This document shows, one piece after another, positions 25,730 to 26,632 of a DNA stretch of 64,000 nucleotides. The notes under the pieces are model-generated. The model was given only the letters and a program-made list of their open reading frames with translations. It was not told the DNA's origin and made no database searches. This DNA comes from Candidatus Latescibacterota bacterium (GTDB taxonomy: Bacteria; JAAXHH01), in NCBI GenBank assembly GCA_022823465.1, contig JAJEHX010000012.1, positions 1 through 64,000 on the forward strand. The letters run 5' to 3'. Within the stretch, counting starts at the first letter, position 1; the number at the start of each line of letters is the position of its first letter. Made by a program: the position numbers and the translations under genes.

Positions 25730-25873
25730 ATAAACCGAGAGGCGGATTTTCAACTTTTTTTGTCTTGAATCGAAGGAAAAGTGCATCCGAATTGTAGATA
25801 CTTAGATGGCGTCCTTATACCCGCGGGAAACCTCTTAGCAATTCGCCATGGACGACTCGTATCACAAAGGCAC

Positions 25874-25901
25874 TTGGTACCGGCGTCCGCCCCGGGATAA
25901 T
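25874..25901 (+). promoter_or_regulatory. Candidate promoter of a small peptide gene
   Basis: TTGGTA (25874-25879), 16-bp spacer, GATAAT (25896-25901). Transcription would start near 25907, just ahead of the Shine-Dalgarno at 25910-25916. Confidence 0.45.
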
Positions 25902-25923
25902 ACACACAAAAGGAGGCATGAAG

Positions 25924-26031
25924 ATGGCACCAGATATCCATGCAACGCGGTCCGCGACCGGACCGAAGGCCTTCGTCTCTGACGCCGGCGCGCAGTGCTC
26001 GTCTCCGGAGTGTTTTTGGCGCAGCCCCTGA
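25924..26031 (+). CDS. Candidate 35-residue peptide with two cysteines
   Basis: Not recognised as any known family. A strong AAGGAGG (25910-25916) sits seven bases before ATG 25924, and the ORF runs 35 codons to TGA. It reads MAPDIHATRS and onward, ending AQCSSPECFWRSP: a Cys-x4-Cys pair near the end. A promoter-like pair lies just upstream and a strong intrinsic terminator (26073-26102) just downstream, so it may be a complete transcription unit. Alternatives are a leader peptide of an attenuator for the next gene, or chance. The in-frame ATG at 25918 is too close to the Shine-Dalgarno. Confidence 0.45.
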   Translation: MAPDIHATRSATGPKAFVSDAGAQCSSPECFWRSP

Positions 26032-26072
26032 AACCCGGATTTGCAAAGGGGTGTTACGCACGTCCTCCGGAG

Positions 26073-26102
26073 CCGCGAGACAAGAGTCACGCGGTTTTTT
26101 TT
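26073..26102 (+). terminator. Intrinsic terminator before the sigma-like gene
   Basis: Stem CCGCGAGAC (26073-26081), loop AAGA, GTCACGCGG (26086-26094) with one mismatch, then eight T. It lies 40 bp upstream of the regulator start. The palindrome CTCCGGAG occurs at 26003-26010 and again at 26065-26072 abutting the stem, so an alternative fold that could affect termination is possible. Confidence 0.75.
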
Positions 26103-26141
26103 CTGTCCTTGAACGTATCGAACCGGAGGTAAAGTCAGTTC

Positions 26142-26570
26142 ATGTATAATCCTGAATTCTGGGAAATACGATTGGATCAGGTTGATTTGGAACAGTTTCC
26201 CAACGAAGCGAATATCTGGTACGAAACGGGGGAAGACCGGGTGCATCGGTACCAGCGCGAGGATCGGGTGGACGAACTGGCCGACGCGGTCTACGACTTT
26301 CTCTCCCAGTACCTGACCCGGAAGCAGTGCGAGGTCGTGGTGCTGTACTTCATCTACCAGAAGACCCAGCAGGAGGTCGCGGAGATCCTCGGCATCTCGC
26401 GCAGGGTCGTCAGCCAGCACCTGTTCGGAATCTGCCGGGACGGCAAGCATATCGGCGGCGCGGTCAACAAGCTGCGCAAGCTGTGCGCCCGGCACGGTAT
26501 AGACTTTCAACCGGAAGAGCAGGCCTTCGGCCCGGGAAACCATCATGGCCCTCTTGCCATATCCGCCTGA
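26142..26570 (+). CDS. Sigma-70 region-4-like helix-turn-helix protein
   Basis: A 142-residue protein. Its middle (about residues 57-115) reads as a sigma region 4 / LuxR-type helix-turn-helix: LTRKQCEVVVLYFIYQKTQQ, then EVAEILGISRRVVSQHLFG, then KHIGGAVNKLRKLC. There is no region 2, so it is not a complete sigma factor; it is probably a DNA-binding regulator that evolved from one or works with another subunit. The N-terminus (NPEFWEIRLDQVDLEQF) is acidic and unassigned. GGAGGT lies 11 bases before ATG. Strong terminators sit both upstream and downstream, isolating it. Confidence 0.75.
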   Translation: MYNPEFWEIRLDQVDLEQFPNEANIWYETGEDRVHRYQREDRVDELADAVYDFLSQYLTRKQCEVVVLYFIYQKTQQEVAEILGISRRVVSQHLFGICRDGKHIGGAVNKLRKLCARHGIDFQPEEQAFGPGNHHGPLAISA

Positions 26571-26602
26571 GAAGCAGTCCATTGTCCGAGACAACAAACA
26601 AA

Positions 26603-26632
26603 GCCGCCGGTTTCGAACTCCGGCGGCTTTTT
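26603..26632 (+). terminator. Intrinsic terminator after the sigma-like gene
   Basis: GCCGCCGG (26603-26610), 9-nt loop, CCGGCGGC (26620-26627), then five T. The stem is perfect. The next gene starts only 20 bp later. Confidence 0.9.

Follow-up and report, generated by a model that had tools for sequence, protein, structure and literature searches.

A probable uORF-dependent attenuator of transcription ahead of a single-copy sigma-region-4-like regulator of Candidatus Latescibacterota

Introduction

In Actinobacteria, the leader of whiB7/wblC combines an upstream open reading frame (uORF), a Rho-independent terminator and an antiterminator, and in mycobacteria the gene is switched on by drug-stalled ribosomes on the uORF (PMC10727445, PMC4128351). 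Amino-acid attenuators of the trp and ilvBNC type also possess a uORF, a terminator and an alternative antiterminator, and ribosome position decides the outcome (PMC10272879, PMC11857589). Attenuators that switch on a regulator are mostly known from a few cultured groups; the leader described here is found around one regulator family in barely studied phyla. No earlier description of this system was found in the open-licence literature, which is weak evidence of novelty.

The locus lies in a stretch of 64,000 nucleotides (hereafter the window; positions 1 to 64,000 of contig JAJEHX010000012.1, assembly GCA_022823465.1) from a Candidatus Latescibacterota genome of 3.86 Mb, and all features given below are on its forward strand. 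A preliminary description had proposed a small peptide gene with its own promoter and terminator, or else a leader, ahead of a regulator resembling sigma region 4.

Results

The regulator gene (26142-26570) codes for a protein of 142 aa in which Pfam, AlphaFold with Foldseek and an alignment of 50 sequences delimited a sigma-70 region-4 fold and an N-terminal segment, NPEFWEI...WYET. As originally stated, region 4 stands alone: Pfam Sigma70_r4 was matched with an E-value of 6.7e-9, the region-4 helix-turn-helix was present and no other sigma domain was found. The N-terminal part gave no sigma-2 match, and no WhiB domain with Fe-S cysteines was detected, the Pfam matches being to sigma region 4 or helix-turn-helix only. 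The AlphaFold model showed a confident core (residues ~40-120), and the best Foldseek matches of the regulator were sigma region 4 domains, with a probability of ~0.99 and weak E-values. The NPEFWEI...WYET segment is conserved in the whole family (alignment of 50) and had no match in Pfam or NCBIfam, and no named NCBIfam family was matched by the regulator above its cut-off. Judged by its domain content, it is not a complete sigma factor. The gene is closed, also as first reported, by a perfect intrinsic terminator (26603-26632; fold z = -3.8).

The named relatives that share this regulator are MAGs of Candidatus Latescibacterota; some were deposited as Gemmatimonadetes or Zixiibacteriota. Comparisons were made over 16 genomes of an order, which within this set is also the class and the phylum. 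The uORF region, two copies of the palindrome CTCCGGAG, a terminator and the regulator occurred together, once per genome, in 16/16 genomes, and a covariance model of the leader gave a single match in each of the 16, always directly before the regulator and nowhere else; the placement of a small ORF ahead of this gene was right. The upstream kinase gene (pfkB type) is shared within the genus only and the downstream DUF4202 gene within the family only. Since the neighbours are so limited while leader and regulator are found in 16/16 genomes, the leader goes with the regulator. An Rfam search of the window returned no leader or riboswitch match above the gathering score.

The uORF (25924-26031) comprises 35 codons for MAPDIHATRSATGPKAFVSDAGAQCSSPECFWRSP, with the end CSSPECFWRSP that had been pointed out, and the Shine-Dalgarno sequence AAGGAGG is at 25910-25916, well spaced as claimed, 7 nt before the ATG at 25924. 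A second in-frame ATG, at 25918, is 1 nt from the Shine-Dalgarno sequence and missing in the sister clade, so the ATG at 25924 was taken as the conserved start. The GGAGG is kept in 15/16 genomes and the frame is open in 15/16, a short uORF with a ribosome-binding site being found in the leader of the regulator in all genomes except G002. There (locus L006), a G to T change creates a TGA at codon 3, which may be real or an assembly error. The uORF spans 34-38 codons in 15 genomes and is reduced to 25 codons in G015; alignment gaps within it are multiples of three only, whereas those 3' of its stop are not. From the end of the uORF (26031) to the regulator there are 110 nt, and strict translational coupling through an overlapping stop and start, as implied by the idea of a translation-coupled leader, was thereby ruled out. 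A frameshift at CCC-TGA carrying ribosomes into the regulator was also rejected: although the window has an open +1 frame, 1-nt indels close this frame in L005 and others.

The promoter-like pair described at 25874-25901 did not withstand comparison. It amounts to one weak consensus match (9/12; 0.3 expected by chance) that the sister clade does not keep, having GGGTTGAAT in place of GGGATAAT, and it was discarded as not conserved. Between the end of the terminator behind the uORF and the ATG of the regulator, fewer than 40 nt are available in the window, without conserved promoter-like sequence, so the regulator is most likely expressed by read-through.

That terminator, described beforehand as strong, is present at 26072-26102 (GCCGCG-A-GAC-AAGA-GTC-A-CGCGGT followed by T8). 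It was recovered by folding and missed by a simple scanner owing to its internal A:A mismatch. An intrinsic terminator was found between uORF and regulator in 16/16 genomes, with 96.5% of cells paired, and it is conserved without covariation over these 16 genomes. When each leader was folded, several species favoured a terminator-free fold, in which an antiterminator was first seen. In this fold, the region up to and including the first CTCCGGAG copy (26003-26010) pairs with the second copy (26065-26072), both copies lying where they had been reported, and then, after a 2-nt bulge, with the 5' arm of the terminator. In the window, the 5' strand (25998-26010; CTCGT plus copy 1) occupies codons 25-29 of the uORF and the 3' strand (26065-26079) consists of copy 2, CC and GCGAG, the last being part of the terminator 5' arm. 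A hairpin, P2 (26024-26029 with 26047-26052), lies inside the antiterminator loop, and the uORF stop codon begins within this hairpin.

The antiterminator helix (25998-26010 with 26065-26079) had 96.9% of cells paired and contained two-sided changes. In most of the genus, 5'-UCUCGU-CUCCGGAG-3' pairs with 5'-CUCCGGAG-CC-GCGAGA-3'; UCCCGU faces GCGGGA in G013 and G014, and AUCCGC faces GCGGAU in G015, the three combinations being found in different families. P2 showed compensatory changes at 3 pairs. Over the 16 sequences, antiterminator and P2 together had 92% of cells paired and a covariation of 0.166, against 0.105 ± 0.011 in shuffles and reached in 0/500 of them; for the seven distinct antiterminator strand pairs alone, the observed covariation was reached in 3/500. 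As the shuffles keep relatedness in, and kinship links the 16 genomes (12 belong to a single genus), these values are support and not probabilities.

Folding of the nascent RNA before the terminator 3' arm is made gave the core of the antiterminator in every species (P 0.77-1.0) and its box or extension in 14/16 species (P >= 0.93); for the strand 25998-26010, pairing in nascent RNA had P near 1. With a ribosome masked over the 3' codons, the folds of L005, L008, L013, L015 and L016 went from terminator-poor to terminator-rich. By rough static energies, the gap between the two full folds ranged from -4.7 to +5.3 kcal/mol across species and was +1.2 in the window. The antiterminator of the window species is weaker, one box pair being lost (G25997 against A26080), and lies 1.2 kcal/mol above the terminator; its static folds gave a terminator probability near 1 with the ribosome present or absent. 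In G011 and in G001 the antiterminator box contains a mismatch. An antiterminator exclusive with the terminator and with one strand in the uORF was thus found, weak in the window species, and the earlier suggestion of attenuation in this leader was supported by the covariation of the antiterminator.

Substitution patterns differed between the uORF and the regulator. Across the genus, the uORF had dN of 0.11-0.33 and dS of 0.04-0.33, with dN >= dS in most comparisons, and 16, 14 and 9 variable sites at codon positions 1, 2 and 3; the regulator had dN of 0.05-0.07 and dS of 0.33-0.78 (dN/dS ~0.1), a sign of strong selection. No synonymous-rate bias indicative of purifying selection on the uORF was therefore found. 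Only the window species and the species closest to it have the CxxxxC motif; at this place the others have CC, C, C-W-C or none. The invariant S-P-E lies on CTCCGGAG, that is, on the antiterminator strand, and its synonymous positions are invariant in 15 genomes as well. What is conserved in the uORF is the frame, the final codons as nucleotides and the RNA. Conservation of the peptide frame in relatives that keep the regulator hence held as far as the open frame is concerned (15/16), but not as selection on the peptide. The proposal of a new small Cys-peptide gene was dropped on dN/dS and the varying number of Cys residues, together with the codon-3 TGA of G002 and the role of the S-P-E codons as antiterminator strand. 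Most likely, the uORF is a leader and no independent peptide gene. Since frame and Shine-Dalgarno sequence are kept, the peptide is unselected and G002 has a stop at codon 3, passage of the ribosome would matter more than the peptide; in G002 full translation is not kept, unless the stop is an assembly error. Attenuation through Cys codons was likewise rejected. The uORF has one or two of them at varying positions (G013 has none at the site), no conserved run whose stall would free the antiterminator was found, and a stall there covers the antiterminator strand, so that the wrong sign is predicted.

A conserved element, AAAGTGCATCCG, was located at 25778-25789, ~360 nt before the regulator, and GTGCATCC occurs 280-400 nt upstream of it in 16/16 genomes and also in most loci of a second phylum (G054-type). 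In one genus clade (L006, L007, L010, L012 and L021), GTGCATCC is duplicated in tandem with a 21-nt period, ~362-383 nt before the regulator. Within the G054 phylum, an extended version of the motif was found in 61 places, against none for the reversed control (45 genomes); it was present in 18/25 genomes with the regulator and 3/20 without it (Fisher P 2e-4, inflated by kinship), and the three motif-bearing genomes without it belong to genera where the regulator is common. G291-type loci have a related sequence, AAAGTRYGCAT, in place of GTGCATCC (17/27 loci, 0 on the other strand), and the recognition helix reads L[TS]QSTVSRHL in G291-type regulators as against ISRRVVSQHL. From these patterns, AAAGTGCATCCG is probably the operator of the regulator, which would then be autoregulated, and AAAGTATGCATA is a candidate counterpart that the G291-type regulator would bind. 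The regulator likely binds AAAGTGCATCCG-type sites and controls itself and a few other genes. A role of AAAGTGCATCCG as a common promoter of the genome was discarded, there being no enrichment of sites with one mismatch (26 versus 24 for the reversed control); its sole other exact copy in the genome is inside an apparent recX gene.

Further AAGTGCATCC-N5-TGTGTA sites were observed before or near genes for WD40-type beta-propellers and other genes in L137, L151 and L155 (G463), L143 (G054) and L147 (G396), and the genes at these sites form a candidate regulon. Away from the regulator, a 10-codon leader (MLSNQRRCDT or MLANQRWCDI, then stop) with a AAGTGCATCC site and a terminator was seen in L154 (G427, ~1500) and L148 (G410). 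One regulator-free copy adjoins a transposase-like gene, and such copies may represent a small RNA or peptide unit of their own.

When 384 genomes were searched, distant homologues of the regulator turned up in unrelated genomes, and focused searches found them in 65/85 genomes of one further phylum (that of G054) and 34/68 of another (that of G291). The layout recurs, as an independent case, in the G291 phylum: 25/27 loci examined have a terminator ahead of the regulator, with an ORF of 35-43 codons before it in the ten loci traced. The leaders of this phylum (20-150 nt upstream) matched their own terminator arm with a summed energy of -649.5 kcal/mol, versus -564 ± 13 kcal/mol for the arms of other leaders (P = 5e-5). 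The match was near-perfect in L104, L106, L123 and L125, falling in the final part of the uORF for the three whose ORF was traced. In this phylum, L041, L103, L105, L106, L109 and L116 have a second ORF, 43-51 codons long and overlapping the start of the regulator gene, which suggests an added translational coupling. The G054-phylum leader differs, having a 10-codon ORF (MLxNQRRC.. and stop), a long hairpin with terminator and then a second uORF that contains RRWCLCP; no antiterminator could be made out in this leader. In L069-L098, ~90 nt before the regulator, the RRWCLCP uORF is accompanied by a GGTGCC..GGYRCC stem beside a GCCTC:GAGG hairpin over the regulator Shine-Dalgarno sequence, possibly a translational version of the same switch.

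Discussion

On balance, the leader probably acts as a uORF-dependent transcription attenuator of a single-copy sigma-region-4-like regulator, and we infer the direction of the switch and its coupling to ribosome position as follows. A transcript started upstream of the uORF could adopt either of two exclusive folds, the antiterminator or the terminator at 26072-26102. A ribosome keeping pace would be on codons ~22-35 as the polymerase makes 26065-26102 and would cover the 5' strand of the antiterminator; the terminator would then form and the regulator would not be made. If translation of the uORF were slow, blocked early or absent, the 5' strand would be free, the antiterminator would form first and the polymerase would read on into the regulator. 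The uORF peptide would be a by-product, and the regulator, by binding the upstream AAAGTGCATCCG, would control its own transcription too.

An attenuator set by a ligand, an RNA-binding protein or nascent-peptide arrest (e.g., Pro-UGA) and not by general ribosome position appears rather unlikely, even though the uORF stop codon lies within the compensated hairpin P2, SPEC..W..P at the C-terminus is kept in the genus, a Pro-stop end is found in 14/16 genomes and a ribosome at the stop codon permits the antiterminator in the folds of L005, L008 and L013. Outside the genus the uORF ends differ (WCSA, GRPSP or PPPGRC), no Rfam family was matched, and the residues that are conserved fall on the strands of the antiterminator and of P2, which explains them without a peptide signal. 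Regulation might also operate on translation, with CCTCCGG (26064-26070, overlapping the second CTCCGGAG copy) blocking the regulator Shine-Dalgarno sequence CCGGAGG (26123-26129) unless copy 1 pairs with copy 2, an arrangement that could add to attenuation. We consider it improbable as the main switch: the 7-bp complementarity is retained in 95.5% of cells, the changes in G014 and G015 being compatible with wobble pairing, and RNAalifold picked the pairing, but it shows 0 two-sided changes and no covariation, a CCTCC run complements any Shine-Dalgarno sequence, and the terminator would end most transcripts beforehand.

It is very unlikely that the uORF is an independent small gene for a functional Cys-containing peptide with its own terminator, next to a regulator with its own promoter. 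Its good Shine-Dalgarno sequence, length-conserved frame and the terminator behind it would suit such a gene; against these stand the dN >= dS of most comparisons, Cys residues differing in number and spacing among species, the codon-3 stop of G002, a leader never seen without the regulator and a regulator lacking a conserved promoter. Most doubtful of all is that the CTCCGGAG repeats are DNA operators of a dimeric protein with incidental RNA pairing. Each copy is indeed an 8-bp palindrome, but in G013 and G015 one or both are no longer palindromic and the two still pair with each other as RNA, and the conserved pairing runs past the palindrome into the terminator arm, with compensatory changes.

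The attenuator reading has some wider implications. What looks like a gene for a small peptide can be a leader with an irrelevant product, and a leader sequence can be rebuilt by compensatory change in each lineage with the same logic retained. Besides a regulator amenable to testing, the locus provides candidates for an operator and a regulon in organisms in which almost no regulation is known.

Among known proteins, the regulator shares a helix-turn-helix fold and weak sequence similarity with sigma-70 region 4, the C-terminal domain of ECF sigma factors and YlxM (UPF0122), from which it differs in lacking region 2, in its own N-terminal NPEFWEI...WYET and in scoring below the NCBIfam cut-offs of the named families. 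Unlike amino-acid attenuators, the leader contains no run of regulatory codons, and its target is a regulator and not a biosynthetic operon. The antiterminator strand here is moreover within the uORF, so a late stall at Cys or Trp codons should favour termination. The proposed logic is that of whiB7 (PMC10727445, PMC4128351), known here from anatomy and conservation, whereas the regulator is sigma-region-4-like and not a WhiB Fe-S protein, the phyla are different and there is no sequence relation. We tentatively raise the possibility of a switch for translation stress that would resemble whiB7 in its logic without any sequence relation to it, built around an undescribed sigma-region-4-only family in at least three mostly uncultured phyla, in which ribosomes stalled on or missing from the uORF would turn the regulator on and, through AAAGTGCATCC-type sites, a small regulon.
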